Source: a virus. Taken from it: DNA of 22,970 bases. Both the position numbers and the translations under genes were made by a program. Below, piece by piece: positions 1 to 22,468 of the stretch; within the stretch, counting starts at the first letter, position 1, and each line of letters opens with the position of its first letter. The stretch lies in the IMG/VR virus record IMGVR_UViG_3300030333_003492, positions 501-23,470 of that record. The stretch is one strand, 5' to 3'. Below the pieces are notes generated by a model. The model was not told where the DNA came from and did no database searches. It worked only from the letters and a program-made list of their open reading frames with translations.

Positions 1-233
1 TGATAGACTGTCAGAAAGTACAGGGCTGCTATTTAAAAGAAAGAAACCCTCTCTATCCAGAAAGACCAAGTAAAGGTAGATTATTAACACAAAAACTAGT
101 GGGCAACACTATAATGTACTATATGATAGATAGATCATCACCCCTACAAAGAAAAAGAAGATTAAAAGCAATGATAATTGTAGGAACAGCTGTAGTTTTA
201 AATAACGGATTTTATCTTGAAACGCGTTTTTAA
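1..233 (+). CDS. Small membrane protein, DUF5658-like, C-terminal part
   Basis: An open frame runs in from the window edge (first full codon at 3) and stops with TAA at 231-233, giving the last 76 residues. The start lies upstream of the window. Seen: a motif of the form ID...YLKERNPLYPERPS, then a moderately hydrophobic stretch, a basic patch (QRKRRLK) and a second hydrophobic stretch ending near NNGFYLETRF. The pattern of Asp, then E-x-NPL, then PS, then hydrophobic helices resembles small DUF5658-like phage membrane proteins of unknown function that I recall from aquatic phages; this is from memory of the pattern. It overlaps the cyclase start downstream by 17 bases, so the two are probably translationally coupled and in one operon. 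Function unknown. Confidence 0.6.
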   Translation, partial: IDCQKVQGCYLKERNPLYPERPSKGRLLTQKLVGNTIMYYMIDRSSPLQRKRRLKAMIIVGTAVVLNNGFYLETRF

Positions 234-2046
234 TAAATTTTTAAACTTAGTTATAGGTATAGCATTTCTTGCATTACTAGCTTGGAATCCATACCCTTTT
301 CAAGTTCTTGAACTAAAATCGTTTGACTGGATAATGTCAACACAGGAAAAAGTACAAAACGAGAATATTCTTCTAGTAGACTTAGATGAAGAAATAGTTA
401 AAGAATATGGAGGTTATCCACTACCAAGAACTCTCTATAAAGATCTAATTTGGAAAACAGACGCTATTCCAGGTATAACCGTTTTAATGCCAGACCCAGA
501 TATTAGAGATCCAATAAATGACGCAGAGCTGTCAACAGCTATGACACTTAAACCAACTGTACTTGCCTACGCGGCATCAGTACAAGCATCTGAAGGTGGG
601 CCGCATGTAGGTACTACTCAGATAGGAGCATCACCCATACCATGGCTATATCAATACCCGGGAATTTTACGACAAACACCCGCCCTAGCAGAGTCCGCAA
701 AAGGCGTAGGACTAATAACAAGCGCACCAGAACTAGACGGAGTCGTAAGACGCGTTCCTCTCGCCGTTAGTTCACAGGAAAAACTATATCCATCTTTCGC
801 ATTAGAAATGCTGAGAGTTGGAGTAGGTGATCCAAGCTATCAAATTAAAGTTCAAGAAGCAGGGGTAGAGTGGTTACGAATACCCAACTATCCAACTATA
901 CAGACTGATGCAAATGCACGAGTATGGTTAACTTCAAATGTAGAATTTTACAGACAATCAGCAAAAGAATATTTAGAAAACCCACTACAAGGAGCAAACT
1001 TTGTAATTTTTGGTGTTACAGCAGAGGGTGTTGTAAACCCAGTACCTACTGCAAAGGGTATGGTTTACCCACATGAGATACAAGCACAAATTTTACACCA
1101 TCTTATTTATGGAACTAGTCCAGTACAACCTGTTTGGACTCAAGCTGCAGAGCTTTTAGTAGCTTTCATACTAATACTAGCAGTTATGTTTACTGCAAGT
1201 AGAGTATATTTTTCACTTCCTATACTTGTAGTAAGTTTATTTTTAACTTATGTTGCAAGTTTATACTATTTTGTTCAAGGTTTCCTACTAGATGTATCAG
1301 GTATATTTGTAGTTGTCTTTTTATACTGGTCAATTGTTACATTTAGAGCGTTTGTAGAGCAATTTTTCTTACGCAGACAAGTTAAAAAGCAGTTTGGCAC
1401 TTATTTATCACCAGACATGGTAAAAATGCTACAAGATGACCCATCTTTACTCAAACTGGGCGGGGAAAGAAAGGAAATGACCTTCCTATTTACTGATATT
1501 ATGGGCTTTACGCCAGTTTCGGAAGCATTTAAGAAGAATGACGATCCAGAAGGTCTAGTAGATTTGATAAATACTTACCTAGACAGCATGACAAAGATAA
1601 TTTTAGACAATGGTGGAACAATAGATAAGTATATGGGCGACTGTATCATGGCATTTTGGAATGCACCACTCTTTGAACCAGCTCACGCAGACAGAGCAGT
1701 TAAGAGTGCAATAGAGATAAAAGCAAAAACTATCGAATTGAACAAACAATTTAAAGAGCAAGGACTTGACCTACCACCAATAAATGTTGGTACAGGTGTT
1801 AATACTGGTACTTGTATCGTAGGAAACATGGGTTCTGAAACTCGATTCGATTATTCCGTAATTGGAGACGCTGTTAACCTTGCAGCGAGATTAGAGGCAA
1901 CAGCAGGTAGAGGAGATTATGCACAATGGCCAATTATAATATCAAGAGATACCGTAGCCCAATGCAGATATCCTCACAGATTTGAAAAGATTGGTGAAAT
2001 CTTAGTAAAAGGTAAGTCAGAACCTGTGGAAATATATTCTGTATAA
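217..2046 (+). CDS. CHASE2-domain class III adenylate/guanylate cyclase (phage-encoded)
   Basis: A 609-residue membrane cyclase, full length for CHASE2 cyclases. Layout: N-terminal membrane helix (about 9-23), CHASE2 sensor domain outside the inner membrane (about 30-300; LELKSFDWIM entry, GVGLITSAPELDGVVRRVPL core), three membrane helices (about 311-328, 333-352, 357-376), a short linker (QFGTYLSPDMV), then the class III cyclase domain (about 418-609). Catalytic residues are intact: metal aspartates D427 (FTDIMGFT) and D475 (DKYMGDC), purine-selecting K471, and transition-state N554 and R558 (VNLAARLE). The second purine-selecting position is S547, where class IIIb enzymes usually have Thr, so ATP is the likely substrate with cAMP the product. 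The start is TTG at 217, chosen because it keeps the first membrane helix; its RBS is weak. The segment around 590-780 looks richer in G+C than the rest of the gene. Surrounded by phage genes, so carried by the phage. The signal sensed is unknown. Confidence 0.93.
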   Translation: MKRVFNKFLNLVIGIAFLALLAWNPYPFQVLELKSFDWIMSTQEKVQNENILLVDLDEEIVKEYGGYPLPRTLYKDLIWKTDAIPGITVLMPDPDIRDPINDAELSTAMTLKPTVLAYAASVQASEGGPHVGTTQIGASPIPWLYQYPGILRQTPALAESAKGVGLITSAPELDGVVRRVPLAVSSQEKLYPSFALEMLRVGVGDPSYQIKVQEAGVEWLRIPNYPTIQTDANARVWLTSNVEFYRQSAKEYLENPLQGANFVIFGVTAEGVVNPVPTAKGMVYPHEIQAQILHHLIYGTSPVQPVWTQAAELLVAFILILAVMFTASRVYFSLPILVVSLFLTYVASLYYFVQGFLLDVSGIFVVVFLYWSIVTFRAFVEQFFLRRQVKKQFGTYLSPDMVKMLQDDPSLLKLGGERKEMTFLFTDIMGFTPVSEAFKKNDDPEGLVDLINTYLDSMTKIILDNGGTIDKYMGDCIMAFWNAPLFEPAHADRAVKSAIEIKAKTIELNKQFKEQGLDLPPINVGTGVNTGTCIVGNMGSETRFDYSVIGDAVNLAARLEATAGRGDYAQWPIIISRDTVAQCRYPHRFEKIGEILVKGKSEPVEIYSV

Positions 2047-2231
2047 AAAATTTTTCTGCTACATACATACTACAAATAAAAATTGTAACAAATTTTTTTG
2101 TAAACATCGAGAACATTGTAGGTTAAAGTAACGATGTGATTTTTAAATATCTGGAAAAATATTCAAAAAATAAAAAAGTAGAAAAAACTGAGACGTTTCA
2201 AGTAAAGATAATTACCTCAGGAAAATAGTTC

Positions 2232-2260
2232 TTGACAAGGATCTTTAATTTTGATATACT
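2232..2260 (+). promoter_or_regulatory. Sigma70-type promoter P1
   Basis: TTGACA at 2232-2237, a spacer of exactly 17 bases, and TATACT at 2255-2260 (one mismatch to TATAAT). It lies in the longest gap between genes of the window (2047-2306), upstream of the lysis/small-gene block, which has no other obvious promoter until P2. It shares the ten bases TTCTTGACAA around its -35 box with P2. Transcription should begin near 2267. The consensus sites suggest use of the host housekeeping polymerase. Confidence 0.85.
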
Positions 2261-2268
2261 ATCATAAA

Positions 2269-2284
2269 TGAATTTTAAAATTCA
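2269..2284. promoter_or_regulatory. 16-bp perfect palindrome at the P1 start site (possible operator)
   Basis: TGAATTTTAAAATTCA is a perfect inverted repeat without a spacer, starting 9 bases after the P1 -10 box, so it covers the predicted transcription start and the first transcribed bases. A repressor bound here would block P1. It is all A/T apart from one G and one C, so chance in AT-rich DNA remains possible. No similar palindrome follows P2. Confidence 0.4.
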
Positions 2285-2306
2285 AAGTTAACAACAGGGC
2301 AAAGTA

Positions 2307-2513
2307 ATGAGTGATAATTTAAACGAGATAGAGCGCAGATTATCTGTTCACGAAGCTCAATGCGAAGAGAGATGGAAGACTATCTTTGGTCGTATGGAGG
2401 GTCAAGAGGAACAGCTAAAACGCATGGAAAATATACTAATTGGTATAGCGGGTGCTGTTATCTGTGGAGGAGGCTCTGTAATTATCACAATAATGGCCAT
2501 GCATAGTGGCTAA
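2307..2513 (+). CDS. Small coiled-coil protein with C-terminal membrane helix, XhlA/holin-like
   Basis: A 68-residue protein. Residues 1-43 are charged and helical (NEIERRLSVHEAQCEERWKT, then GRMEGQEEQLKRME), and residues about 44-65 form one membrane helix (ILIGIAGAVICGGGSVIITIMA). This soluble-helix-then-anchor plan resembles XhlA-type phage proteins that work with holins, and other small phage membrane proteins. First gene after P1 and close to the spanin pair, which supports a role in lysis, but no catalytic or diagnostic motif is present. ATG at 2307 with a weak AGGG upstream. Could equally be an unrelated membrane-anchored phage protein. Confidence 0.6.
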   Translation: MSDNLNEIERRLSVHEAQCEERWKTIFGRMEGQEEQLKRMENILIGIAGAVICGGGSVIITIMAMHSG

Positions 2514-2525
2514 AGGAGAAAGAAC

Positions 2526-2720
2526 ATGGCATTGAAAAATTATGCAACAAAAGAAATGAAAGCCGTAGACAGTAAAGTTCCTACTTCAGATGGAGTAATC
2601 TGGAAAGAAGGAAGTGTTTGGAAATTTAAGTGGAAAGGTAGTGAATGTGGATATACTACTGAAAACGATGCGAAAAAAGGACTGGCTAAAGTAAGTGGCA
2701 CGTCTAAAGAAAAGTCTTAA
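2526..2720 (+). CDS. Small hypothetical protein (64 aa)
   Basis: I do not recognise a family with certainty. Lys-rich, no membrane segment or signal peptide. It has a central Trp/aromatic segment (GVIWKEGSVWKFKWKGSECG) suggesting a small beta-rich fold, and a charged tail. The ATG is preceded by a strong ribosome binding site (AAAGGAGAAAGAAC), which makes it a confident gene despite its size. It follows the holin-like gene by 12 bases and overlaps the next gene by 26 bases, so it is part of the P1 operon. Confidence 0.65.
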   Translation: MALKNYATKEMKAVDSKVPTSDGVIWKEGSVWKFKWKGSECGYTTENDAKKGLAKVSGTSKEKS

Positions 2721-2934
2721 AACCTTTTGGTTATGGCTAGTTAGCTGGTTTTCAAAGCGTTGGAGACTAGATGTTAGTTATAATAAACAATGGGGTGATG
2801 CAGACGATAGACAATATATTGTCAAAAAATTTCTTATTAAAAAAGATAAGCATTTAAAATTTATAACTCATACAAAAGAAGTTATAGAAATTAGAAGCCC
2901 CTCTGGACTAAACTACAGGATTACATCTTTATGA
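2695..2934 (+). CDS. Small hypothetical protein with Trp-rich N-terminal helix (79 aa)
   Basis: Starts with GTG at 2695, inside the end of the previous gene, with AAGGA about 13 bases upstream. Residues 8-20 (LKTFWLWLVSWFS) form a short amphipathic or membrane-associated helix rich in Trp. The rest (YNKQWGDADDRQYIVKKF, then KHLKF...SGLNYRITSL) looks like a compact beta-rich domain. I recall similar uncharacterised proteins in aquatic phages, but no function. Its stop overlaps the ATG of the next small gene (ATGA), implying coupled translation. Confidence 0.65.
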   Translation: MARLKKSLKTFWLWLVSWFSKRWRLDVSYNKQWGDADDRQYIVKKFLIKKDKHLKFITHTKEVIEIRSPSGLNYRITSL

Positions 2935-3080
2935 AAATATTAGTACTACTATGTCTAATTTTTCCCGCTAGTGAAAGACCTATTGATGTAAAGGACTGTA
3001 CAATGTGGAAGTATGGTGAACCAGAAGTATATGAGTGGTGTTTAGAAAAACCAACTCCAGAAATTATTAGAGAATTATGA
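2931..3080 (+). CDS. Tiny exported protein (49 aa) with signal-like N-terminus
   Basis: ATG at 2931 overlaps the TGA of the previous gene, and its own TGA at 3078-3080 overlaps the ATG of the i-spanin gene. This two-sided ATGA coupling is the best evidence that it is real. The N-terminus (MKILVLLCLIFPASE) looks like a short signal peptide or membrane anchor. The remainder contains two cysteines (residues 23 and 37) within CTMWKYGEPEVYEWC, possibly a disulfide in the periplasm. Function unknown; the position next to spanins suggests an envelope location. Confidence 0.55.
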   Translation: MKILVLLCLIFPASERPIDVKDCTMWKYGEPEVYEWCLEKPTPEIIREL

Positions 3081-3472
3081 ATCAATTACTTATAGGAATA
3101 ATACTAATTATGGGCTTTTTAGGCTACGGGTTGTATATAGAAAATGAAAACCTAAAAGCAGAAAACGCAGCCTATGTACTAAGAGATAAAGAACAAGACG
3201 CAGCAATAAATCAACTTCAAGGAGATTTAGAACTGCAAGGTAAGGGTTTACAGGAAATGCAAGCAAGAAATGCTGAAATTCAAGGTGAGATGAACCGTTA
3301 CTTAGATATATTTAAAAGACACAATTTAACAAAGTTAGCAGCAGCAAAGCCTGGGCTAATTGAACCAAGAGCAAACAAAGCTACTAAGGAGGTATTCGAT
3401 GGAATCGAAGAAGATAGTCGCAATATTGACGATCTCGATGATGGTATCCAGCTGCAGTCTGGTACCAACTAA
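3077..3472 (+). CDS. Rz-like inner-membrane spanin (i-spanin)
   Basis: A 131-residue protein with an N-terminal membrane helix (residues 2-20, NQLLIGIILIMGFLGYGLY) followed directly by a long Gln/Glu-rich coiled coil (about 21-90). This is the standard plan of an i-spanin: anchored in the inner membrane with the coil in the periplasm. The decisive context is the overlapping lipoprotein gene in another frame starting inside its 3' end, the classic Rz/Rz1 arrangement. With its partner it would span the periplasm and fuse the two membranes in the last step of lysis. Translation starts at an ATGA overlap with the previous tiny gene. Confidence 0.75.
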   Translation: MNQLLIGIILIMGFLGYGLYIENENLKAENAAYVLRDKEQDAAINQLQGDLELQGKGLQEMQARNAEIQGEMNRYLDIFKRHNLTKLAAAKPGLIEPRANKATKEVFDGIEEDSRNIDDLDDGIQLQSGTN

Positions 3473-3773
3473 AAAAGAAGTTGAAATAAAAACAAAAGCG
3501 ATTGAGCGGACTATAATTCAGCCCGTTATGCCTCGAGAAATTGATTTAAAAGAACCATATTGGTATGTAGTTTCAGATAAAAACATTGATGAATTTCTAG
3601 CAAGAGTGGAAAAAGATCAAGGACAGGTAGTCTTTTTTGCGATGTCAGTTCCAGATTATGAACTAATGGCATATAATATGCAAGAACTAAAAAGATATAT
3701 AAATGAATTAAAAGAGGTGGTAGTCTATTACAAAAAAGTAACTACACCACCTAAAAAAGATGACGAATCATAA
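3399..3773 (+). CDS. Rz1-like outer-membrane lipoprotein spanin (o-spanin)
   Basis: A 124-residue lipoprotein. The signal peptide (residues 1-18) ends in a lipobox, V16-S17-S18-C19, so Cys19 should be lipidated and the protein sorted to the outer membrane. I chose the ATG at 3399 because it has a full AAGGAGG ribosome binding site and gives a correct signal peptide; an upstream in-frame ATG at 3360 would bury it. It overlaps the i-spanin gene by 74 bases in a different frame, as in Rz/Rz1 pairs. It is longer than typical proline-rich Rz1 proteins and has a folded C-terminal part (VVFFAMSVPDYELMAYN, RRYI-like KRYINELKEVVVYYKK). The context supports spanin function; the C-terminal domain is unassigned. 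Confidence 0.72.
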   Translation: MESKKIVAILTISMMVSSCSLVPTKKEVEIKTKAIERTIIQPVMPREIDLKEPYWYVVSDKNIDEFLARVEKDQGQVVFFAMSVPDYELMAYNMQELKRYINELKEVVVYYKKVTTPPKKDDES

Positions 3774-3912
3774 AAGAAGATTAGAAATCTGTTATCGTTG
3801 TCAATATATAACAGCTTTGAAGGTGTGTAAAGTATGTAAGTGTTTTATGCCCCTAAAAGTACGATCATCAAGGGCAAAATGCCCTAAGAACTTATGGGGA
3901 GAAAAGTTATGA
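3760..3912 (+). CDS. Cysteine-rich mini-protein, zinc-ribbon-like (50 aa)
   Basis: ATG at 3760 overlaps the end of the o-spanin gene, and the stop at 3910-3912 overlaps the start of the next gene. The 50 residues contain six cysteines: C11-x2-C14, C23-x2-C26-x-C28 and C41, a spacing fit for one zinc site with extra ligands. It ends in KCPKNLWGEKL. Small phage proteins with this C-x2-C...C-x2-C-x-C...CP...W pattern are familiar to me but uncharacterised. Predicted to bind zinc; the partner is unknown. The cysteine pattern and gene coupling on both sides argue against chance. Confidence 0.65.
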   Translation: MTNHKRRLEICYRCQYITALKVCKVCKCFMPLKVRSSRAKCPKNLWGEKL

Positions 3913-4094: not shown

Positions 4095-4180
4095 TGCCTT
4101 ATCATTACAAACCTAAAAAGGGTAAAAAGAAAAAACGCGGTAAAAAGCGTAAGAAAAGAATGAAACACCATGGCTGCTAG
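4094..4180 (+). CDS. 28-residue ultra-basic peptide
   Basis: GTG at 4094 overlaps the previous TAG by one base and has AAGGAG 9 bases upstream, a well-placed ribosome binding site. The peptide has 15 Lys/Arg among 28 residues (GKKKKRGKKRKKRMK core) and no acidic residue, like a protamine. Its end overlaps the start of the next basic gene (ATG at 4170). First of six consecutive genes for basic proteins. Real translation is likely from the RBS and gene packing, but at this length it cannot be certain. Likely binds DNA or RNA by charge. Confidence 0.5.
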   Translation: MPYHYKPKKGKKKKRGKKRKKRMKHHGC

Positions 4181-5501: not shown

Positions 5502-5726
5502 ATGATTCAAGATAACTGGTTAGAAGATGTAGGAGATCTTTGTGTTACAACATTAGAGATGTTAAACACAAAAGTTCAAAGTGGTTCTGTCGTTACTAAT
5601 GATGACAAACTCTTAAGAGATATTTGTCTGGGTTATTTATATATGTTAAGCATATGTAATGAAGAAGGACTAATATCTGAAACACACATACCCCTTAATT
5701 TAAGAAAAAATATAACAATACACTAA
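5502..5726 (+). CDS. Small helical protein upstream of terminase (74 aa)
   Basis: Acidic-to-neutral, predicted mostly alpha-helical (NWLEDVGDLCVTTLEMLNTK, LLRDICLGYLYMLSICNEEG). No recognisable DNA-binding motif. Its TAA overlaps the terminase ATG (TAATG), and it sits where a terminase small subunit is often found. At 74 residues it is short for that role, so the small terminase assignment is only a possibility. The RBS is weak (AGG). I cannot name a family. Confidence 0.55.
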   Translation: MIQDNWLEDVGDLCVTTLEMLNTKVQSGSVVTNDDKLLRDICLGYLYMLSICNEEGLISETHIPLNLRKNITIH

Positions 5727-7027
5727 TGTTAGATGTAAGTAGGAAAGATATACTACGAGATAGTATAATGGAGTTTGATGCAGCTTCACGCTTTATCAAA
5801 TTACCCATATCCGAATACTTAAACCTTTTAGGGGTTACACCAAATTCAGCGCAGGTAGCATTGATCAATGCTATAAATAATCCAAAGTATAGATTCGTAT
5901 GCGCAGCTTTATCTAGGCGGCAAGGGAAAACATATATAACTAACGTCATTGGACAACTGGTTTCACTCGTGCCTAATTCCCACATTCTAATAATGTCACC
6001 TAACTATGCACTATCACAAATTTCATTCGATTTACAAAGACAACTAATTAAACACTTTGATCTTGAGGTGGTGAGAGATAATGCAAAAGATAAAGTTATA
6101 GAACTATCTAATGGTTCAACTATCAGAATGGGTTCAGTTAATCAAGTAGACTCTACTGTCGGTAGATCGTACGACTTGATTATATTCGACGAGGCTGCAT
6201 TGGCAGACGGCAAAGACGCTTTCAATGTAGCCTTGCGACCTACTCTAGATAAAGAATTAAGTAAAGCAGTGTTTATTTCCACCCCTCGTGGCAGAAATAA
6301 CTGGTTTGCAGACTTTTACCATAGAGGCTTTAGTGATGAGTTTAAAGACTGGTCATCTATTCGAGCTACTTATCATGAAAACCCAAGAATATCACAAGAA
6401 GACATAACTGAAGCAAAGAAAAGTATGTCTTCAGCAGAGTTTGCTCAGGAATATTTAGCAGACTTTAATACTTATGAAGGTCAGGTCTGGAACTTTGATT
6501 ATGAAACTTGTGTAGCTGATTTAAGTCAGTTAGATACTAGTAAAATGGACGTTTTTGCAGGAATGGACGTTGGGTATAAAGATCCAACAGCTTTTTGTGT
6601 TATAGGATATGATTGGGACGAGCAAAAATTTTATCTTCTAGACGAGTATCTAGACGCAGAAAAAACTACTGAACAACACGCTACCGAAATTAGAAAAAGA
6701 ATTAATAAATATGATATTGATTGGATTTATATAGATTCGGCGGCACAACAAACTCGCTATGACTTTGCACAAAACTATGATATTTCAACTATAAATGCAA
6801 AAAAATCAGTATTAGACGGCATAGGACATGTTGCGGGTATTATAGATAATGATTTATTAATAATAGATCAAAGATGCAGACACACTTTAGAATCCGTTGA
6901 TCAATATCAATGGGATCCGAATCCTAACTTAATAAAAGAAAAACCAAAACACAATATGGCAAGTCACATGGCAGACGCGCTTAGATATGCGCTTTATACC
7001 TTTGAGACATCTGCCAGTACATTTTAA
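5726..7027 (+). CDS. terL: Terminase large subunit (TerL)
   Basis: The 433-residue motor and nuclease that packages DNA into the procapsid through the portal. ATPase domain: Walker A-like SRRQGKT at 63-69, Walker B LIIFDEAA at 151-158, coupling motif STPRG at 185-189. RNase H-like nuclease domain: D281 (MDVGYKDPTAF), D337 (IYIDSAA) and D417 (HMADALRYAL), the expected metal-binding aspartates. All motifs are intact and in order. Short but complete for the family. Translation is coupled to the preceding small gene by TAATG. It appears to be the last gene of the P1 block, because P2 begins 27 bases after its stop. The packaging type (cos or headful) cannot be read from the sequence. Confidence 0.95.
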   Translation: MLDVSRKDILRDSIMEFDAASRFIKLPISEYLNLLGVTPNSAQVALINAINNPKYRFVCAALSRRQGKTYITNVIGQLVSLVPNSHILIMSPNYALSQISFDLQRQLIKHFDLEVVRDNAKDKVIELSNGSTIRMGSVNQVDSTVGRSYDLIIFDEAALADGKDAFNVALRPTLDKELSKAVFISTPRGRNNWFADFYHRGFSDEFKDWSSIRATYHENPRISQEDITEAKKSMSSAEFAQEYLADFNTYEGQVWNFDYETCVADLSQLDTSKMDVFAGMDVGYKDPTAFCVIGYDWDEQKFYLLDEYLDAEKTTEQHATEIRKRINKYDIDWIYIDSAAQQTRYDFAQNYDISTINAKKSVLDGIGHVAGIIDNDLLIIDQRCRHTLESVDQYQWDPNPNLIKEKPKHNMASHMADALRYALYTFETSASTF

Positions 7028-7053
7028 AAATATGACCTGCCAAAAAATTATTC

Positions 7054-7101: not shown

Positions 7102-7473
7102 ATGAATTTAAAAAGAGATTTAGTCAAGTACGTTAGAGACAAAGCGAAATCAGGTTATAAGAAAGAGACTGAATGCTATATCTGTGGACACACAGAGAAG
7201 CTAGAGTTTCACCACTTCTATGGAATGACTGAGCTTTTAGAAACTTGGCTGAAAACGAATAAAATTACGATAAATTCAGCCGACGAAATAATGAATGTTC
7301 GGGAAACTTTTATTGCAGAACATATAAATGAAATTTATCACGAAGCTGCTACACTATGCAAATCCCATCATATGCGGCTACACAGTATTTACGGTAAACG
7401 ACCAAAGCTCGTAACTGCCGCAAAACAAAAGCGATGGGTAGATAAACAGAGGATAAAAAATGGCATGGTATGA
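7102..7473 (+). CDS. HNH endonuclease
   Basis: A 123-residue nuclease with an HNH/zinc site: C25-x2-C28 (CYICG), the His pair H37-H38 (LEFHHFYG) and C86-x2-H89 with H90 and H94 (TLCKSHHMRLH). HNH proteins beside the terminase support DNA cleavage during packaging in several HK97-like phages; others are homing endonucleases. Here the gene lies between TerL and portal, directly behind a perfect promoter, with an RBS of TAGGAAA. Its last 14 bases overlap the portal gene, which favours an integrated packaging role over a recent homing insertion. The substrate is unknown. Confidence 0.88.
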   Translation: MNLKRDLVKYVRDKAKSGYKKETECYICGHTEKLEFHHFYGMTELLETWLKTNKITINSADEIMNVRETFIAEHINEIYHEAATLCKSHHMRLHSIYGKRPKLVTAAKQKRWVDKQRIKNGMV

Positions 7474-8677
7474 CAGACTTTTAGGTAGAAATACGGAGAC
7501 GGAGGAGAAATTAAATCCTGCGCAGTCGTTTATAGCTCTAGAAGAAGGACTAACACTAGACACTCGTGAAACGAAAGATAATTATCGATCAGCTTACGAA
7601 GAGTTAGAGGTAGTTAACCGTGCTGTGAATATGATAGTAGATGATGTTTCTGATATATCGTTTCAAGTTGGGGATAAAATTAAAGGAATCACGCCTATCA
7701 AGAATAATGTTCGAAGAAGTCGTGTAGATTTAATACTGAATAGAGAGCCTAACCCATTTCAAGACATAAGTAACTTTAAAAGAAATTTAATAGTAGACTT
7801 ATTAATAGATGGAAATATTTTTATTTATTATGATGGTGCTCATCTATATCAATTACCTGCAAATAACGTAACGATTCATAGTGATACTCAAACTTATATA
7901 GAAAAATTTGAGTACGACGGACACATAGATTACGCTCCTAGAGAAATTATACATATTAAAGAAAACTCATTTAATTCAATCTATAGGGGCGTTCCAAGAT
8001 TAAAACCAGCATACAGAACTATGTACTTGTTGGATAATATGAGGAAGTTTCAAGATAACTTCTTTAAAAACGGAGCCGTACCAGGATTAGTGCTTAAAAG
8101 TCCTAACACTCTTTCTGAAAAAATCAAAGAAAGAATGCTGCAAGCTTGGCAAACTAGGTATAATCCTAAAAATGGGGGTAAAAGACCTCTCATATTAGAT
8201 GGCGGTTTGGAAGTAGATGCTTTAACAAAAGTAAACTTTAAAGAACTAGACTTTCAATCTTCTATTGCGGCAAATGAAAAAATAATTTTAGAAGCAATGG
8301 GTGTACCACCTATACTTCTTGATGGTGGGAATAATGCTAACATTAGACCAAATCATCGACTTTACTACTTGGAAACAGTTTTACCAATAGTAAGAAAAAT
8401 GTCTTATGCTTTTGAAAGGTACTTTGGATATAAACTAGTAGAAGATGTAACAGATATTCCTGCTCTACAACCAGAGCTAAGAGATCAAGCAGCTTATTAC
8501 CAATCTTTAGTAAATACAGGCATAATGACACCAAACGAAGCTAGGGAAAGCTTAAACTTAGAAATGATCGAAGGTCAAGACGAGTTAAGAGTCCCAGCTA
8601 ATATAGCGGGTAGCGCAGCAGACCCCCAAGAAGGTGGGAAACCGCCCCAAACAGAGGAAGAAAATAATGGCGAATAA
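7460..8677 (+). CDS. Portal protein, HK97-like family
   Basis: A 405-residue protein that would form the dodecameric DNA channel at one capsid vertex, docking TerL outside and the neck proteins after packaging. Supported by length, gene order (after TerL/HNH, before protease-capsid) and motifs typical of the HK97-type portal family: NRAVNMIVDDVSDI near the N-terminus, FKRNLIVDLLIDGNIFIYY, FFKNGAVPGLVLKSP mid-protein and NNANIRPNHRLYYLETVLPI in the C-terminal half. The C-terminal tail (from about residue 385) is Pro/Glu-rich and probably disordered. ATG at 7460 is inside the HNH gene with AGAGGA upstream. The 3' end overlaps the next gene by 11 bases. Confidence 0.9.
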   Translation: MAWYDRLLGRNTETEEKLNPAQSFIALEEGLTLDTRETKDNYRSAYEELEVVNRAVNMIVDDVSDISFQVGDKIKGITPIKNNVRRSRVDLILNREPNPFQDISNFKRNLIVDLLIDGNIFIYYDGAHLYQLPANNVTIHSDTQTYIEKFEYDGHIDYAPREIIHIKENSFNSIYRGVPRLKPAYRTMYLLDNMRKFQDNFFKNGAVPGLVLKSPNTLSEKIKERMLQAWQTRYNPKNGGKRPLILDGGLEVDALTKVNFKELDFQSSIAANEKIILEAMGVPPILLDGGNNANIRPNHRLYYLETVLPIVRKMSYAFERYFGYKLVEDVTDIPALQPELRDQAAYYQSLVNTGIMTPNEARESLNLEMIEGQDELRVPANIAGSAADPQEGGKPPQTEEENNGE

Positions 8678-8965: not shown

Positions 8966-10999
8966 ATGAAAGAAAAAATATTTCATTGGACTAATACATT
9001 TAAAACACTAGGTGAAGATGATGACGGTAGCGTTAACATTAGAGGCTTAGCTAGCACAAACTCAATAGATCGAGTAGGTGATGTTATTAACCATGATGCA
9101 TGGACAAAGTCGGGAGGACTGAATAATTTCGAGAAAAACCCGATAATTTTGTTTAATCATAATTATGATAAACCTATTGGTCGAGCTACTTCTATGGAAG
9201 TAAACAAATCAGGTCTGGAACTTGGAGCGAGAATCTCTAAGTCAGCAGGCGAAATTAAAGATCTAATTAAAGATGGCGTTCTTGGAGCCTTTTCCGTTGG
9301 TTTTAGAGTCAAGGATGCTGAATATAATGAAGAAACCGACGGATTAGAGATAAAAGACGCCGAACTTTTTGAAGTATCAGTTGTTAGTGTTCCAGCTAAT
9401 CAAACTGCTATGTTTTCTCTTGCTAAATCTTTTGATAGTGAAGCGGAGTACCAGGAGTTCAAAAATCTTTTTAAGAATAACAATGAGGCTAATCAAGTTA
9501 ATAAACTTGAGACGCCACAAGCGACGGATAAAACCGTTTCACAGGAGAAACCTATGTCTATTGACAATGACACTCCTAACGCTAATGTAGACTTAAAAGC
9601 GTATGCAGAAGAAGTAGCAAAAGCAACTGCTGCTAAAATTGCTATGCAACAAGCCGAAACAAAAGCTAAGGAGAAAGCAGAAGCAGAAGAAGCAGCACAG
9701 CTAGAAGCTGAAGAAAAAGCTGCTATCGAAGCTGAGCACGAAAAAGTCAAGACGATAGTAGAAGTCGGAATGGAAGGCGCTGAGCGTCTTACTAAAGACC
9801 TAGAGGAGCGTGTTTCTGAAAAACACGAAGACCTTGAAAAAGTCGTCGATGAACTTAAGGCTGATCTTACCGAAAAGAAACAAGAAATCGAAGCAATTCG
9901 TGAATCTAAAAGAGTTTTCGGAAGAGAAAGCACTTCTGACTGGAAAAAAGCCTATGAAGCAGACATCAATGATGCCTGGACTATGGGTCTTGCAACAGGT
10001 AAAGGTTGGAACACAAAACTTGCACAAGCTACTGTAGAAAAAGTTAACGCACATTCAGGCGTTGGCGTTTCTTCAGCTGACTTTGAGCAAACTGTTTCAA
10101 CTGGTGTCGAAAGAGATATTCAATTAGAGCTAGTAATGGCTCCTCTCTTTAGAGAAATTCCTATGCAGTCAGCAACTCAAATCATACCTATCCTACCAGA
10201 TAGTGGTTATGCAGAATTTGCATCTGGTCAAACTGCTAGTGGATCATCTCCACATGGTAACCTAGCCCAAAGAGGCGACACTTATGGTTCACCATTCGGT
10301 GGTATTGATATGACAGAAAGGACACTTTCTACTAAAAAACTAATTTCACAATCTTACTTAGGTAACGAAACTGAAGAAGATGCAATTCTACCGATTCTTC
10401 CTTTAATCAGGGAGTCAATCATTAGATCTCATGCAAGAGCTATGGAAAACGCGTTACTATTAGGTAACAACGCTGACGGTCAATTTGGTACTTCAGGCGC
10501 TTCTTTCGATGGTATCTGGCACCTAGCTGAAGCTGACAGTGATGTCACTCAATCAGCTACTGCATTTGCTTCTGATACAGTTACAGCTGCTGAACTATTG
10601 GCACTAAGAAAGAACATGGGCAAATACGGTATCAACCCATCTGATGTTGTTTATATCGTTTCTTCTACAGTTTACTACAACTTGCTAGAAGATGCTGAGT
10701 TCCAAGATGTGAACCTAGTTGGTGATATGGCTACTAAGCTAAATGGAGAAATCGGAATGGTATTTGGATCTAAAGTCCTAGTATCTGACGAATTCCCAGC
10801 TGCTGCAACTAATATGCCTGCAGCAATCGCTGTGTATCCTAAGAACTACGTAATGCCTAGACTCCGCGGTGTAACCATCGAGTCTGATTACGAAGTTGCG
10901 AATCAGCGCAGAGTGCTCGTTGCTTCACAAAGAATTGGCTTCACCGATCTAATCGATGGCGCTACTTCTAAGTGGGCTTATCAGTACAAAGGTAGTTAA
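8966..10999 (+). CDS. Fused prohead protease and HK97-fold major capsid protein
   Basis: A 677-residue fusion. Residues about 1-155 form a U35-type prohead protease: H65 (LFNHNYDKPIG), S110 (LGAFSVGF) and an acidic partner in the ELFEVSVVSVPAN segment (E133 or E136). Residues about 200-315 are Ala/Glu/Lys-rich coiled coil, the scaffolding 'delta' part. Residues about 320-677 are the HK97-fold capsid protein (GVGVSSADFEQTVSTGVERD, YVMPRLRGVTIES, then RRVLVASQRIGF near the end). Protease normally matures the capsid by removing scaffold and then itself. A strong internal in-frame start at 9554 (residue 197) would yield scaffold plus capsid alone. ATG at 8966 has TAGGAC upstream. No separate scaffold or protease gene is present. 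Confidence 0.93.
   Translation: MKEKIFHWTNTFKTLGEDDDGSVNIRGLASTNSIDRVGDVINHDAWTKSGGLNNFEKNPIILFNHNYDKPIGRATSMEVNKSGLELGARISKSAGEIKDLIKDGVLGAFSVGFRVKDAEYNEETDGLEIKDAELFEVSVVSVPANQTAMFSLAKSFDSEAEYQEFKNLFKNNNEANQVNKLETPQATDKTVSQEKPMSIDNDTPNANVDLKAYAEEVAKATAAKIAMQQAETKAKEKAEAEEAAQLEAEEKAAIEAEHEKVKTIVEVGMEGAERLTKDLEERVSEKHEDLEKVVDELKADLTEKKQEIEAIRESKRVFGRESTSDWKKAYEADINDAWTMGLATGKGWNTKLAQATVEKVNAHSGVGVSSADFEQTVSTGVERDIQLELVMAPLFREIPMQSATQIIPILPDSGYAEFASGQTASGSSPHGNLAQRGDTYGSPFGGIDMTERTLSTKKLISQSYLGNETEEDAILPILPLIRESIIRSHARAMENALLLGNNADGQFGTSGASFDGIWHLAEADSDVTQSATAFASDTVTAAELLALRKNMGKYGINPSDVVYIVSSTVYYNLLEDAEFQDVNLVGDMATKLNGEIGMVFGSKVLVSDEFPAAATNMPAAIAVYPKNYVMPRLRGVTIESDYEVANQRRVLVASQRIGFTDLIDGATSKWAYQYKGS
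9543..9556 (+). promoter_or_regulatory. Internal in-frame ribosome binding site and start for capsid protein without protease
   Basis: AGGAG at 9543-9547, a 6-base spacer and ATG at 9554-9556, in the same frame as the fusion and exactly at the junction between protease and scaffold (MSIDNDTPNANVDLKAY). Initiation here would give a 481-residue product ending at 10999. Its signal is stronger than that of the upstream start, which fits the need for hundreds of capsid subunits per few proteases. The sequence is seen; its use is inferred. Confidence 0.65.
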
Positions 11000-15315: not shown

Positions 15316-16251
15316 ATGTCTTATAGTTTTCTTCGCGAGAGTAAGCTATATATAGTGTATAGCGGAAATAAGTATAGAATATATACTACTTCCGCTATCA
15401 CTTTTGATCAAACATTTGCGGAAGATGCGTACTCAGTAAAGACTTTGCACGATCAATCAAAAATGTTTGAAGGTTCAAGCATAACAAAAGCAAATCCTGC
15501 TTCGTTTAGTTTTGATATACCTTTAACAACAGAAAAAGACGAGTCTATAATGGTAGACTTAGCTTGTGACTTAGTTGCTACATCGGAAGCTGATATAGAA
15601 ACACAGCAACTTAAGTCATTTGATATTTACGTACAAACTGGAAGCAGCACTTTTAAATTAGAGGGAGCTGTTATTACAGGAGCTACATTTGATTTTGTAC
15701 CTACTAATCAATTTCAAATGAGGCTTGAAGGACAAGGTAAAAAACTAACAAGAGCAGGAGATGAATCATTTTCAATCCCAGGCAGTGCTCAATCTGAGTC
15801 TGCCACGAGAAATCCTCTCATAGTATATCCAGTTATTGAAATAGATAGTTTAAATATGAGCAGTATTATAAGCTGTAATCTACAACTTCAAAATAATATA
15901 ACTTGGACACCATACGAAACTCTTAATGATAGCCTTGAAGTAACAGACTCTAGTAATGCAATGTTTCCAACAACTTACACTTTAGGTAAGCGTATTATAT
16001 CGGGAGAAATACGTCAATACCAAACCGACAATAATGTCACACAATTTGATGATTTTAATACTGATAGTACTTTAATAATAAAAGCAATAGAAGTAGGAAA
16101 AGCAAGTAATGCTACTGCTTTCTTTCAATTAACTATAAATCCTTGTATGTATACAGCAAGAGTACAACCTGGCGAAGTATACAGTCAAAGTTATGATTTT
16201 AGATCGCTTGATAATAGTGCATTAAGTAGTATAATCACACAATATTCATAG
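15316..16251 (+). CDS. Second tail-tube-like protein (paralog of the upstream tube protein)
   Basis: A 311-residue protein. Its order of motifs mirrors the upstream tube protein: ESKLYIVYSGNKYRI (against NTKVFVSSVNG...NCFRI), ITFDQTFAEDAYSV (against YSFSQGSESTDV), GATFDFVPTNQFQMRLEG (against CEIDFSIDGIAQITWSG) and LQLQNNITWTPYETL...RIISGEI (against SISIENNVTYVTPETI...RTISGSL). The insert of about 115 residues is absent. It could be a tail-tip or initiator ring protein closing the tube, or a tube variant; the sequence does not decide. Start ATG at 15316 with a weak AGG; the gap of 8 bases suggests coupling to the upstream gene. Confidence 0.68.
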   Translation: MSYSFLRESKLYIVYSGNKYRIYTTSAITFDQTFAEDAYSVKTLHDQSKMFEGSSITKANPASFSFDIPLTTEKDESIMVDLACDLVATSEADIETQQLKSFDIYVQTGSSTFKLEGAVITGATFDFVPTNQFQMRLEGQGKKLTRAGDESFSIPGSAQSESATRNPLIVYPVIEIDSLNMSSIISCNLQLQNNITWTPYETLNDSLEVTDSSNAMFPTTYTLGKRIISGEIRQYQTDNNVTQFDDFNTDSTLIIKAIEVGKASNATAFFQLTINPCMYTARVQPGEVYSQSYDFRSLDNSALSSIITQYS

Positions 16252-17048: not shown

Positions 17049-20000
17049 ATGGCAACATCAGATGAAATCAATATAAAACTAAAGATAGACGATGGAGAGT
17101 TAAAACTCGCTGACGCTAATATCAAAAAACAATCTGCTGCCTTAGATAAAAATACAGGTAGTAAAAAGAAAAATGAACAGCAAAGTAAAAGAAACTTTGC
17201 TGTAGAAAAATCTTTACATCAAACAACTCTTAATAGTACAAAAGCTTTTTCAAAACAAGCTAGAGACATGGGTGGCTCTTCTGGACTAGTTGCCGCCTAT
17301 GCAACTTTAGCTGCTAACGTCTTTGCTGCAACCGCAGCTTTTGGGGCACTTTCTCGTGCTGCACAATTCGAACAATTAAAAATAGGTTTGGTAGAACTAG
17401 GTGCAGCTAGTGGTCAAACTCTTTCTGTTATGGCTAATGGTTTAAGAGAAGTAACTGGAAATGCTATATCTGCAGAAGAAGCTATGAGAGGAGCAGCTTT
17501 AGGTATTTCGGGTGGATTCTCGGGGGTAGAACTAGAAGGTCTTGCTAAAGTAGCAAAAGGGGCTTCTATAACTCTTGGAAGAAACTTACCAGATGCATTT
17601 GATAGATTGACTCGAGGTGCTATTAAGCTAGAGCCTGAAATTCTTGATGAATTAGGTATTATGGTTAGGCTAGATGATGCTGTAGAAAAATACGCAGCAC
17701 AACTAGGTAAATCTGTTGGTTCATTAACACAAATGGAAAGAAGACAAGCATTTATGAATGAAATTTTAGAGCAAGGTGCTTTAAAGTTTGGAGCAATAGC
17801 TGATGAAGTAGATGCCGATGTATACTCTCAATTAGGAGCTACATTCTCTGATTTAACAAAAGATATCTTTACATTTATTAATGATACATTAAGATTAACA
17901 ACAGTAATTAAATTTTTATCAGAAAATACAATGATTTTATTTGGTACTATGGTTCTTTTTGGAAGTACCATAGCAGGAAAAATGTTACCAGTTTTAGGTC
18001 AAATGGGAGAAAAAGCAAGAGCAACAGCAGATAATTTACATAGATTAGCAGACAGTCAAAAAGCATCAATTAAAGCAGCAAAACTTTCCAAAGCTGAAGG
18101 AATTATAGAATCGGGTGTAGGATCCGATGCTTTTAAAGATATAATGAAAAGTTATAAAGAGGGAACAGCAGGAGCCAAAGAACTAACAGAAGCAGAAAGA
18201 AAGATAGGCATTGGTTTAGGAAGGCTAAGATCTAAACGAAAATTTAATTCCGAACAAGAAAGATTAGAACACCTAGCAAGAATAAAACAATATGAGACTG
18301 AAAAAGCAGAGCTAGGACAGCTTATAGCATTAGAAGAGGGCAGGGCTAGAGGCGCTGTCGCAGCAGAATCAGCAGAAGTACTTGCAAGAAATGCAGATAC
18401 TGCGGCAGATGCTATTGGTTCATACTCTGCTGGAGCCGCAGGTTTAGGAGCAACCTTTGCAGCATTAAAAGAGAATAATAAAGGTCTTTCAAAAGCATTA
18501 TTTGAGCAGAATATGAAAATGTCAAGTGGTGGTGCAATTTCAAAATTATATAATAAGGCATTGGCAAAAGCAACAGCATTTACAACTTTATTAGGTCAAC
18601 GAGTTAAAGTACTTGGTGCTGCATTTTTAAAAGCATTACCTTTAATAGGTTTAGTTACAGTAGCTTTAGGTGCTGCGTATCTTGCATATAGAAAATTTTT
18701 CCTTACAGAAGAACATGAAGCATTCATGAAACAACAAGAAGAAACTCAAAAAATATTAGAAAATCAAGTAGAAATACAAAGAAAATTCTTACAAAACCAA
18801 GAGAGAATAACAAGTTCAGCAAACAGACAGACAGCTGCTTATGTTGCTATGAGTGGTATGATAAAAGAAACAAACCAAGCTCTAAGAGAGGAAGTAAGAC
18901 TTAGAAAACTTTCGGCACGAGACCAAGAAAACTTAGGAAGAAGAAACGCTGATAGAGCTGCAGCTAACTTAGTGGAACAGGACTCAACTTTGGTAGGGGG
19001 ATATATGGGTATTGGAGCTACTACATTATATGGAGATACGGGAGATGAAAAAGTTATAAATGAGTTTGGTGATAAGTTAGGTGGAATTATTAACGAAATA
19101 TCTAACAAAGCTGAAAAGATAGACTTTATAGAAAGATTATTTGGTATAGAAAAATCTGCAGAATTTAAATTCTTTAAATCTGCTATCAATAGTGATATAC
19201 CTAAAGTTGCAGAAATGGCATCTAAACAATTTAAAAATATAATGGATCGAGGTTTAAGTGGAGCTGAATTAGCTGCGGCTTTAGAAGCAGGATACGCTAA
19301 CTTAGAAGAAATATTAGGTGGAATAGGAGCAGCAGCTCAGGGTGTAGCGAATGGCTTGAGAGAGTCTGAAAAAGAAGGCTCTAAGTTTTTAGCTTCTTTT
19401 TCTAGAAAAACAAAAATTTCTGAATTTGCTCGTCAAGTAGAAGGAATGAGAAAAAATTTAAAAACCATGAGAGGCGAAGTAGATATACTTTTTGATCAAG
19501 GTGGTGAAGGTGCTTCAGCAGACAGAATGGCTTTAGAAATGGGACAAGCTTTAAGTGGAGTTGGATCAAGGACAGCTGATTTAGTTGGTCCAGAGTTTGC
19601 CCAACAAGTTAGAGATATAAAGAAAGAAGAAGATGAGATGAGAAAAATCAAACTAAAAACGTTTGATACAGAACAAGAAAGACTAGATGCAATAGATGCT
19701 CAACAAGCTATTATAGACGAACAAGTAAAATCTCTAGGTAAGATGGACGGTGAATACGAGAGTATGATTGACAAAGTTCTTGAAATAGAAAGAGCAGAAA
19801 TAAGTAATGCACAGGCTTTAAAAGCAATGCAAGAATCTACAAAAATAATAAACTCTCTTAAAAAACAAAATGTAAATTTAGCGAAAGAAGAAAATAGAAT
19901 AGCACAAGCTCAATTAGCTTTAGAAGTAGATTTGGCTGAAAAACAATTACAACTTTTAGAAAGACAATTTACAGGATCAGCAGCTTTAAAAGAAGAATTT

Positions 20001-21734
20001 AAATTTGGCAAAGATTTGGTAATACTGGCAGGTCAAAGAGTAAGTGAAGCTCATTTGGAAGAAATGTCTTATGAAGACAGAATAAGATTAGCTGAGCAAT
20101 TAGGTATAAGTGCAGATAAAGTTTTTTCAATGGAAGAACTCCATTTAAAAATAACAGAAAATTTAAGAAAGAAAGACTTTAAAGCAAGAATAAGAGAAGA
20201 TGAGTTTAGAATAGCTGAACTAGAAAGACTTCAAAAAATACAACAACAAGAAACTGCAATATTTAAGTTAAGACAAGAACAACTAAAAATTACAAAGATG
20301 GAAAATAACTTTAATAAGGGTGATGCATCTAAATTAACAGCAGTTGAAGAATCCGAACTAAGAATAGCAGCAGCTAGAGAAGAATTAAGAACAGCAAAAG
20401 AAAGAGAAGAGGCTGAAAAAGAAGCAGCATTAGCTAGACAGTTTATAGCACTACAAGAATTAGAAGAATTAAAGAAGAAATTACAAGAGGCTAAAACTCC
20501 TATGTCGGAAGAAGTAGAAAATATACTAGCTGAACAAATAAATAGACAAGCTGGTCTTGATTTTGAAAAAATTGAAGAAGATATAAAAACTTTTGGATCA
20601 AAAGTAGAAATGGAAGTTCTTAAAGCTTTTGACGCCGCATTACAATTAGCAGCTGAAGGTAGAGGTATGGAAGCCTATGCAGCAGCTTTAAAAGCGGCTA
20701 CTGATGCAGCTTCTCCTGGTGGGGAAGATATAACAGCAGGAGAAGCCGTACAGCTTATGGAAACTCAGGTAGCTAGTGCAAAAGAAGCTTTATTGGAACT
20801 AGGCCCTCAGGGCGAAGCTTATGCAGGTGTACTAGAGGGAATGAATGGTATAGCTAATTCTATACTTTTAATAGGTCAAGCAGGAGATAATTCTGCACAA
20901 AAAATTAGAGGAGTTACTGGTACTCTTAAAGGGATAGGTCAAATGATTATGCAATCTTCTAAAGCACAATCAGCAGAAATAGAAAATCAAATAAAAGCAG
21001 AAGAAAAGAGAGATGGTAAATCAAAAGAATCCTTAGCAAAAATAAAAGCAATGAAAGCAAAACAATATGCTATAGAGAAAAAAGCTTTTGAACAAAACAA
21101 AAAGATACAGTTAGCAAATGCAATTGTAAATGGTATGGCGGCTATACAAAGTGCTTTTAAAACAGATCCATTTTTCCCTCTTGGTTTAGCCATGGGAGCT
21201 TTAGCTACTGGAATTACTATGATGCAAATAAAAGCTATACGAGGTCAAACATTTCAAGGTGATAATCCAAACGCAGGAGCAGCACCGCCAGCATCTATAA
21301 GTGTAGGGGCTAGAGATAATAGAGTAGATGTATCACAAAGAGCAACTGCAGGAGAACTCGCATACCTTAGAGGTGATAAAGGGGTTGGAACGACAGCAAA
21401 CCAGTTTCAATCAATGAGCGGGGCAGCAGGACTACGTAAAGGTTACGCAAGTGGTGGTGTACTCGTAGGAGAGCAAGGACCAGAAGTAATTAAACCATAT
21501 GCTGGATTTGAAGTTGTACCAAATGATCAACTAGGTGGAAAACAAGTTAATGCGCACTTTACAATAAACGCAATAGATGCACGAGGAGTAGAAGAAGTAC
21601 TTCAAGAACAACAAGGAAATATAATAGGTATGATCAGAGCAGCAGCAAACGATTATGGTCAAGAGTTTTTAGAAGCAGTAGAGGTAGATCACTTAGCGGG
21701 TACACCTAAATCAGCAGGAGGAATTGATTACTAA
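17049..21734 (+). CDS. Tape measure protein
   Basis: The 1561-residue tail length ruler, packed inside the tail tube and released at infection. Long helical/coiled-coil stretches rich in Lys, Glu, Gln and Ala cover most of it. Hydrophobic segments stand at about 74-105 (AAYATLAANVFAATAAFGAL), 290-315 (NTMILFGTMVLFGSTIAG), 525-548 (LPLIGLVTVALGAAYLAY) and 1357-1398 (LGLAMGALATGITMMQIKAI). The C-terminal tail carries a typical tape-measure signature at about 1457-1490, YASGGVLVGEQGPEVIKP followed by VVPNDQL. By the rough rule of about 1.5 angstroms per residue the tail would be about 230 nm long (inference). Starts one base after the upstream gene's stop; stop overlaps the next start (TAATG). 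Confidence 0.95.
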   Translation: MATSDEINIKLKIDDGELKLADANIKKQSAALDKNTGSKKKNEQQSKRNFAVEKSLHQTTLNSTKAFSKQARDMGGSSGLVAAYATLAANVFAATAAFGALSRAAQFEQLKIGLVELGAASGQTLSVMANGLREVTGNAISAEEAMRGAALGISGGFSGVELEGLAKVAKGASITLGRNLPDAFDRLTRGAIKLEPEILDELGIMVRLDDAVEKYAAQLGKSVGSLTQMERRQAFMNEILEQGALKFGAIADEVDADVYSQLGATFSDLTKDIFTFINDTLRLTTVIKFLSENTMILFGTMVLFGSTIAGKMLPVLGQMGEKARATADNLHRLADSQKASIKAAKLSKAEGIIESGVGSDAFKDIMKSYKEGTAGAKELTEAERKIGIGLGRLRSKRKFNSEQERLEHLARIKQYETEKAELGQLIALEEGRARGAVAAESAEVLARNADTAADAIGSYSAGAAGLGATFAALKENNKGLSKALFEQNMKMSSGGAISKLYNKALAKATAFTTLLGQRVKVLGAAFLKALPLIGLVTVALGAAYLAYRKFFLTEEHEAFMKQQEETQKILENQVEIQRKFLQNQERITSSANRQTAAYVAMSGMIKETNQALREEVRLRKLSARDQENLGRRNADRAAANLVEQDSTLVGGYMGIGATTLYGDTGDEKVINEFGDKLGGIINEISNKAEKIDFIERLFGIEKSAEFKFFKSAINSDIPKVAEMASKQFKNIMDRGLSGAELAAALEAGYANLEEILGGIGAAAQGVANGLRESEKEGSKFLASFSRKTKISEFARQVEGMRKNLKTMRGEVDILFDQGGEGASADRMALEMGQALSGVGSRTADLVGPEFAQQVRDIKKEEDEMRKIKLKTFDTEQERLDAIDAQQAIIDEQVKSLGKMDGEYESMIDKVLEIERAEISNAQALKAMQESTKIINSLKKQNVNLAKEENRIAQAQLALEVDLAEKQLQLLERQFTGSAALKEEFKFGKDLVILAGQRVSEAHLEEMSYEDRIRLAEQLGISADKVFSMEELHLKITENLRKKDFKARIREDEFRIAELERLQKIQQQETAIFKLRQEQLKITKMENNFNKGDASKLTAVEESELRIAAAREELRTAKEREEAEKEAALARQFIALQELEELKKKLQEAKTPMSEEVENILAEQINRQAGLDFEKIEEDIKTFGSKVEMEVLKAFDAALQLAAEGRGMEAYAAALKAATDAASPGGEDITAGEAVQLMETQVASAKEALLELGPQGEAYAGVLEGMNGIANSILLIGQAGDNSAQKIRGVTGTLKGIGQMIMQSSKAQSAEIENQIKAEEKRDGKSKESLAKIKAMKAKQYAIEKKAFEQNKKIQLANAIVNGMAAIQSAFKTDPFFPLGLAMGALATGITMMQIKAIRGQTFQGDNPNAGAAPPASISVGARDNRVDVSQRATAGELAYLRGDKGVGTTANQFQSMSGAAGLRKGYASGGVLVGEQGPEVIKPYAGFEVVPNDQLGGKQVNAHFTINAIDARGVEEVLQEQQGNIIGMIRAAANDYGQEFLEAVEVDHLAGTPKSAGGIDY

Positions 21735-22468
21735 TGGCAACATTTACTAGTTTTTTAGATATACTACCTGATCCAAATAATAAAATTGGAGACGCAGGAC
21801 AAGCACTTGGTTCAGGAACAGCTGGGCCTGGCTTTGCTTCCGTTAAGTTTTCTTCTCAAGCACCAACACAAGTTTCTAGAACAAACAGCGGTAGAGTTAT
21901 TACTCGAAGAGTGGCAGGTCAAAGATGGGATATAGCAATAACTTATAATCCAATGACTCGAGACGAATTTGAACCTGTCTATAATTTTTTATTACATAGA
22001 GGAAGATTAGATCCTTTTTATGTACAACTACCAAATCAATATAAAGGTAGAGTATCTGCGTTTGCTACTCACACATCTAGTAATACACCTACAGCTGCAT
22101 CTGCTTTAAATCAGGGTGCTCAATTTATGTTACAGGCAGGTCACTCTACTACTCAGACAACTACACCAAAACCGGGTGATATGTTTACAATAACAGATAC
22201 AAATGATTCTTTGCATACTAAAGCATATAGAGTTACACGGGTTATGAATAATGCTGATTATCATAGTGGATTACATTCGCAACCTACAACAGCTCAAAGA
22301 ATTGTTTACTTTTCACCACCTCTTCAAAGAAGTGTAAGTTCTGGGTCAGGTATAGATTATTACCAACCACTATTCAGAGTCATACTAAAAGGTGATGTAC
22401 TTGAATATAGTTTAGGTACTAATAATTTATATCAATTTCAACTTAACTTAGAGGAAGCACAAGCATAA
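21734..22468 (+). CDS. Distal tail / minor tail protein
   Basis: A 244-residue protein directly after the tape measure, where distal tail proteins are encoded. The N-terminal half has a recognisable pattern: SRTNSGRVITRRVAGQRWDI (Arg-rich beta hairpin) and NPMTRDEFEPVYNFLLHRG followed by PFYVQLPNQ. The rest (about 105-230) is Thr/Ser-rich beta structure with a hydrophobic C-terminal strand (FRVILKGDVLEYSLG). Similar proteins are found after tape measures in aquatic phages as I recall. It probably forms the ring joining tube and tail tip. No receptor-binding or enzymatic motif is seen. Confidence 0.7.
   Translation: MATFTSFLDILPDPNNKIGDAGQALGSGTAGPGFASVKFSSQAPTQVSRTNSGRVITRRVAGQRWDIAITYNPMTRDEFEPVYNFLLHRGRLDPFYVQLPNQYKGRVSAFATHTSSNTPTAASALNQGAQFMLQAGHSTTQTTTPKPGDMFTITDTNDSLHTKAYRVTRVMNNADYHSGLHSQPTTAQRIVYFSPPLQRSVSSGSGIDYYQPLFRVILKGDVLEYSLGTNNLYQFQLNLEEAQA

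Follow-up and report, generated by a model that had tools for sequence, protein, structure and literature searches.

A CHASE2 adenylate cyclase gene at the end of a curli module in a T5-like marine siphovirus, and its possible role in signalling

Why a phage should carry a membrane sensor joined to an adenylate cyclase is the question raised by the locus discussed here, which lies in a stretch of 22,970 nucleotides (the window) beginning 500 bases into an IMG/VR record of 33,691 bases. The reading that we prefer, with a probability of about 0.55, is that the product, a membrane class IIIb-type adenylate cyclase, does the signalling for the curli (type VIII secretion) module that a T5-like marine siphovirus carries. 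Features of the window are given in Table 1.

Table 1. Features of the window, with window coordinates, strand and basis of assignment.
Feature	Position	Strand	Basis or remark
3' end of 110-aa ORF, between second curlin gene and cyclase	1..233 (starts L082:401)	+	ORF list
CHASE2-class III adenylate cyclase gene	217..2046	+	TTG start, 609 aa; closes phage curli module; ORF, Pfam, PHROG, alignment, AlphaFold2
Cyclase membrane helix 1, residues 2-23	220..285	+	AlphaFold2 helix, hydropathy
CHASE2 sensor domain, residues 16-323, predicted periplasmic	262..1185	+	PF05226 7.7e-29
Three membrane helices and signalling helix, residues 308-393	1138..1395	+	AlphaFold2
Ancestry switch zone (sensor to cyclase) in viral copies, residues ~395-403	1399..1425	+	L005, L081 identity profiles
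Class III cyclase domain, residues 419-602; D427, K471, D475, S547, N554, R558	1471..2022	+	PF00211 1.8e-18; PDB CyaB 3r5g 6.5e-40; residue counts
Extended sigma70-type promoter TTGACA-17-(TG)TATACT, predicted start of lysis/packaging unit	2232..2260	+	Consensus match, conserved in relatives
68-aa coiled-coil and membrane-helix protein, first gene past promoter in most relatives; possibly lysis-related	2307..2513	+	Gene comparison with L002 and relatives
Rz-like inner-membrane spanin	3077..3472	+	phrog_739 2e-14
Rz1-like spanin, overlaps Rz-like gene	3396..3773	+	phrog_812 9.6e-13
Large terminase, T5-like	5726..7027	+	Pfam, PHROG, homologue comparison
Portal protein, T5-like	7460..8677	+	Pfam, homologue comparison
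Prohead protease fused to major capsid protein, T5-like	8966..10999	+	Pfam, PHROG, homologue comparison
T5 p140-type baseplate tube protein	15316..16251	+	PF23779 2e-18
Tape measure protein, T5-like	17049..21734	+	PHROG, homologue comparison
Distal tail protein, T5 pb9-like	21734..22468	+	Pfam, PHROG

With regard to the protein itself, the ORF, Pfam and AlphaFold2 agree on a complete CHASE2 and class III cyclase with four membrane helices amid phage genes, as in the original prediction. Both Pfam matches, to CHASE2 and to Guanylate_cyc, are well past cut-off. The AlphaFold2 model (mean pLDDT 89.4) has helices at residues 2-23, 308-326, 330-353 and 361-393, and in it a first membrane helix leads to a mixed alpha/beta domain, after which come three further membrane helices and then the cyclase fold, so that the CHASE2 domain is flanked by membrane helices and predicted to be extracytoplasmic. 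In structure comparison the cyclase part resembles CyaB of Pseudomonas aeruginosa and CyaC of Spirulina, with the adenylyl cyclase CyaB as the nearest solved structure, in line with an adenylyl type, and a PDB sequence search with the sensor half gave no match. The protein belongs to PHROG 35576 (1.6e-168).

The catalytic residues originally listed (D427, D475, K471, N554, R558) are all present. D427, K471, D475 and R558 are identical in 32/32 viral and 71/71 bacterial relatives aligned, and N554 in all of these except the copy in the Melnitz methylophages; two metal-binding Asp, the transition-state Asn and Arg, and a fold like that of CyaB and CyaC place the protein in class III. Adenylyl as against guanylyl cyclases have Lys together with Asp, Thr or Ser, and Ser or Thr fits the class IIIb adenylyl cyclases. 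Here the lysine is the invariant K471, and position 547 is Ser in 31 of the 32 viral and 63 of the 71 bacterial proteins and Thr in the other 8 bacterial ones (Ser 94/103 and Thr 8/103 overall). The enzyme is predicted to be active, of adenylyl and class IIIb type, and we infer that it makes cAMP. Ser547 had been put forward as a hint of odd specificity, but as Ser is normal in this family it gives no such pointer. It seems quite unlikely that the main product is another nucleotide (cGMP, cCMP or cUMP): sequence cannot prove specificity and one structural neighbour is the guanylyl cyclase Cya2, but K471, which selects for adenine, is invariant and residue 547 is as expected for class IIIb adenylyl cyclases. 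The Melnitz protein (L085:8971-11019) has D at 547 and S at 554, and is the sole viral copy to keep the bacterial C-terminal tail discussed below; with N554 lost and S547 replaced by D, it may be inactive or altered in activity or specificity.

In the case of the virus, the 33.7 kb fragment has terminase, portal, capsid, p140, distal tail and tape measure genes all of T5-like type, and on this gene content the source is a marine T5-like siphovirus, among relatives of the Demerecviridae. The prohead protease and major capsid protein are in one ORF (window 8966-10999), whereas the T5 relatives matched have two genes. In L083 a 1776-aa protein encoded past the tail genes (L083:462-5792) has collagen-like repeats near its C-terminus. 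In 75 of the closest 80 viral loci, a sample biased toward the query, the cyclase is followed by T5-like terminase, portal, capsid or spanin genes as found in the window, and when T5-like contigs were selected by terminase all 7 with at least 6.5 kb of upstream sequence were found to carry the cyclase. What is added here is that a common lineage of T5-like marine siphoviruses has the curli-FecR-cyclase module built into its gene plan.

The cyclase gene is near the left end of the contig, and the window therefore hides the curli genes that precede it. In the record itself (L082) the C-terminal end of a curlin-repeat gene is present before the window at L082:3-401, with 68% identity to the curlin of L002, the nearest relative, which is from another metagenome and collinear with the window (90% nucleotide identity over 232-4368 and 95% over 5502-10762; 95% protein identity for the cyclase). 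The order in L002 is TonB-dependent receptor, small terminase (phrog_3802, 6.5e-40), two small membrane proteins (phrog_18771), CsgF (6e-16), CsgG (1.5e-52), curlin-like protein, FecR (5e-10), second curlin-like protein and cyclase, followed by the 68-aa membrane protein, spanins, large terminase, portal and protease-capsid. This second independent assembly, and the same neighbourhood in about 75 further contigs, confirm that the gene is contiguous with phage genes.

The order of the core module is constant in viral loci with sufficient upstream sequence, with the second curlin gene shifted or absent in some; CsgF-CsgG-curlin-FecR-curlin is found in L002 and about 50 other loci, and our record has the curlin end. 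Of 51 viral records, Pfam detected FecR in 47 and CsgG in 39, the misses being mostly in records that end short of these genes. Judged by gene order, the cyclase is the final gene of a phage curli module, which is predicted to export curli fibres during infection; Melnitz infections showed no clumping (PMC9004378). For the two small proteins ahead of CsgF the match is to PHROG 18771, whose function is unknown, and to no kinase domain, and we rejected their identification with the "HK" of published modules.

A promoter of the TTGACA-17-TATAAT type is present within 300 nt past the cyclase stop in 75/79 loci, usually 4 nt past it, the call requiring at least 11 of 12 consensus matches, which a control stretch inside the cyclase gene gave in 6/79. 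In many loci a second consensus promoter stands 35 nt ahead of the small terminase gene, and there are almost none on the opposite strand. These promoters are consensus matches across related sequences, without mapped transcript starts, and on this basis the module is predicted to be a single transcription unit that begins at the promoter ahead of the small terminase gene and ends with the cyclase stop. The lysis and packaging genes are predicted to have a transcript of their own because a consensus promoter follows that stop. The suggestion that the cyclase times lysis, with cAMP or the sensor reporting the state of the envelope to the lysis genes downstream, had been based on the nearby spanins, which are 1 kb downstream, and a lysis-timing role for the phage curli pore was proposed by the Melnitz authors (PMC9004378). 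However the predicted separate transcript speaks against it, the invariant neighbours are the upstream FecR, curlin and CsgG genes, and the genes annotated downstream of the cyclase in HTVC008M and Melnitz encode tail, baseplate or hypothetical proteins rather than spanins, and we consider lysis timing improbable. Between the spanins and the terminase (window 4515-5225) there is a run of small, very Lys/Arg-rich proteins; the first, for which Pfam gave no match, is kept by many of the T5-like relatives. An Rfam search of the window gave no match.

The bacterial relatives offer a guide to what the sensor might respond to. A FecR gene is within 10 kb of the cyclase in 26/48 bacterial loci, against about 0.8 expected from a genome density of 171 per 229 Mb, the 26 not being independent as many are from related Nitrobacteraceae. 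FecR stands alone directly upstream of the cyclase in Thalassospira, and in Bradyrhizobium and Pelagibius it is a domain of giant cadherin/RTX adhesins, again directly upstream. Afipia has HlyD adaptors upstream of a CHASE2 cyclase, and marine single-cell genomes have a fusion of cNMP-binding and HlyD domains in the directly upstream position (L118:8270-9985, L135:1500-3218, L137:2753-4477 and L138:8256-9980; Pfam-checked in L118 and L138), which looks like type I secretion under direct control by cAMP. With these FecR, adhesin and HlyD neighbours, it is evident that a pairing of CHASE2 cyclase, FecR and adhesin export exists in bacteria with type I secretion. In a Burkholderia biofilm operon a FecR protein is paired with a CHASE2 kinase (PMC5192318), and the CHASE2 cyclases of S. 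meliloti receive a protein signal via outer-membrane NsrA, their output being relayed by the CRP-type regulator Clr (PMC13001267). Partial correlations of distance matrices did not single out FecR-CHASE2, as the value for FecR-cyclase given CsgG (0.30) was nearly equal to that for FecR-CHASE2 (0.35), and FecR-CHASE2 given the cyclase domain was 0.15.

We suggest that the periplasmic CHASE2 domain would read the state of fibre export, most likely by a signal from the FecR-domain protein encoded just upstream, and that the cyclase would then make cAMP inside the infected cell, to act on a host protein that may be a CRP-type regulator or a cyclic-nucleotide-gated channel. FecR is the likely route because its pairing recurs in the bacterial relatives and with the Burkholderia CHASE2 kinase. 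Sensing of fibre export, FecR as ligand, cAMP as the nucleotide and a host receptor are all at the level of what we infer from the locus and its relatives.

The history of the gene bears on whether the sensor is used. In close pairs the dN/dS is about 0.04-0.16, indicating strong purifying selection on both halves, with 0.07-0.16 for the CHASE2 half. Mean distance is 0.24 for the cyclase half and 0.44 for the sensor half, which drifts. In L005 the sensor half has 83% identity to L055 and the cyclase half 82% identity to the window, and in L081, a phage without T5 markers nearby, the two halves have 31% and 79% identity to the window respectively. On these profiles the two halves of the viral protein have been exchanged by recombination at a point near residue 395, across T5-like and other phages. 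About 80 extra C-terminal residues are present in 71/71 bacterial relatives and missing in the aligned viral copies except Melnitz, and by this alignment the phage copies have lost the bacterial tail. In an unrooted tree, with the best 80 hits as bacterial sample, viral and bacterial proteins are on the two sides of one branch (SH-aLRT 100).

Several of these observations could also fit a cyclase that is mostly a signal-independent source of cAMP for reprogramming host metabolism, with its position beside curli genes due to shared origin or transfer and not to function: loss of the tail could have removed a control, the halves recombine, and it is the cyclase half that is conserved while the sensor drifts. 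We regard this as a serious possibility but rather unlikely, as purifying selection acts on the CHASE2 half and the FecR-curlin neighbours do not vary. That the gene is a hitch-hiker with no function in the phage is scarcely credible given the low dN/dS and its presence in all 7 terminase-selected contigs with at least 6.5 kb of upstream sequence, although the Melnitz copy is substituted at two active-site positions.

Signalling of fibre export by cAMP would require a receptor in the host, as the phages carry no recognisable one: Pfam found no cNMP-binding domain (PF00027) in 51 phage records including G000. The TonB-dependent receptor gene that adjoins the small terminase gene in L002 (L002:2241-4679, + strand; Pfam 4e-41) occurs in only 1 of about 80 loci, and could be a host marker or serve to alter receptor display. 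It matches 36/81 genomes of the SAR86 order with up to 53% identity, and the few other gammaproteobacterial matches are at about 30%, which suggests a SAR86 host, from one receptor on one contig. A cNMP-binding protein is present in 24/81 and a CHASE2 protein in 21/81 SAR86-order genomes, and all 21 of the latter also have the cNMP protein, 2-4 kb away. In two such loci checked by Pfam it is an ion channel, with a DUF481 protein adjoining the cyclase and, in one, MscS between. G505 and G493, which have the nearest TonB receptors, both have this locus. In L254 (5247-10406), L255, L256 and L257, all of the SAR86 order, there are genes for a TetR regulator, CHASE2 cyclase, DUF481 protein, MscS and cyclic-nucleotide-gated ion channel. 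As the native SAR86 CHASE2 cyclase adjoins such a channel, the phage cAMP might act on the host channel and not on a transcription factor; we think this very doubtful, but if it is so then a phage cyclase coupled to fibre export would directly change membrane potential.

An alternative also raised in the original prediction is counter-defence, in which the wrong nucleotide would flood the receptors of cyclic-nucleotide systems such as Pycsar. Nothing specific points there and we give it almost no weight: the known anti-Pycsar proteins are nucleases (PMC9117128), PycTIR answers cUMP and not other cyclic mononucleotides (PMC11224242), and the conserved partners of the phage gene are curli genes, against a similarity to PycC cyclases found by PADLOC that is only at superfamily level. 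Membership of the PycC group was itself considered and rejected, given that level of match and the lack of a PF00027 effector in the 51 phage records.

Few ligands of CHASE2 domains are known, and this module from a phage provides a compact, linked candidate. It would also make of a curli-FecR-cyclase "auxiliary gene" a testable circuit, in which a phage may monitor the export of its own fibres and signal it by cAMP.

With regard to earlier work, a paper of 2022 described T8SS clusters that include FecR and adenylate cyclase in pelagiphages of podo- and myovirus type, noted their alphaproteobacterial affinity and suggested transfer across families (PMC9599517), and curli pore genes were described in PMC7029224 and PMC9004378, in which the cyclase is not named in the text. 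HTVC008M, a Pelagibacter phage, and the Melnitz methylophages have the cyclase gene, annotated and in the same order. A phage CHASE2 cyclase is thus not without precedent, as had been supposed, given these annotations, PMC9599517 and PHROG 35576; what stands is the lack of a characterised example, our literature search having found no paper on the biochemistry of one. The surprise is limited, as the window is a further member of a published module. Our additions are the T5-like lineage, the predicted transcription unit between its promoters, the FecR pairing seen in bacterial relatives too, the recombining halves and the tail lost from phage copies.

The protein is of the same family as that of HTVC008M (AGE60353; 42% identity), the modules of PMC9599517 and PHROG 35576, and in pelagiphages too the cyclase ends a CsgF-CsgG-CsgA/B-FecR-curlin-AC series. 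The differences are that those are myo- and podoviruses and ours a T5-like siphovirus, and that here the module separates the small terminase gene from the large one and has a consensus promoter at either side. The module of Melnitz, a Methylophilales phage, is alike in order, but its cyclase has 35% identity and differs in the retained tail and the two substitutions. The cyclases of Alphaproteobacteria (S. meliloti CyaD1/CyaD2/CyaK type) and SAR86 share the CHASE2 and class III layout and catalytic residues, and many have FecR or adhesin-secretion neighbours, as the phage gene has FecR; they differ in having 30-40% identity, the C-terminal tail in all sampled, and a place on the other side of the tree. 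Pycsar PycC has the class III cyclase fold in common, but the phage protein has a membrane CHASE2 sensor and adenylyl-type residues and no cyclic-nucleotide effector gene nearby. The Burkholderia BiofilmReg operon likewise has a periplasmic FecR protein beside a CHASE2 sensor, with biofilm as output (PMC5192318), although there the sensor acts through a histidine kinase and response regulator and not a cyclase.
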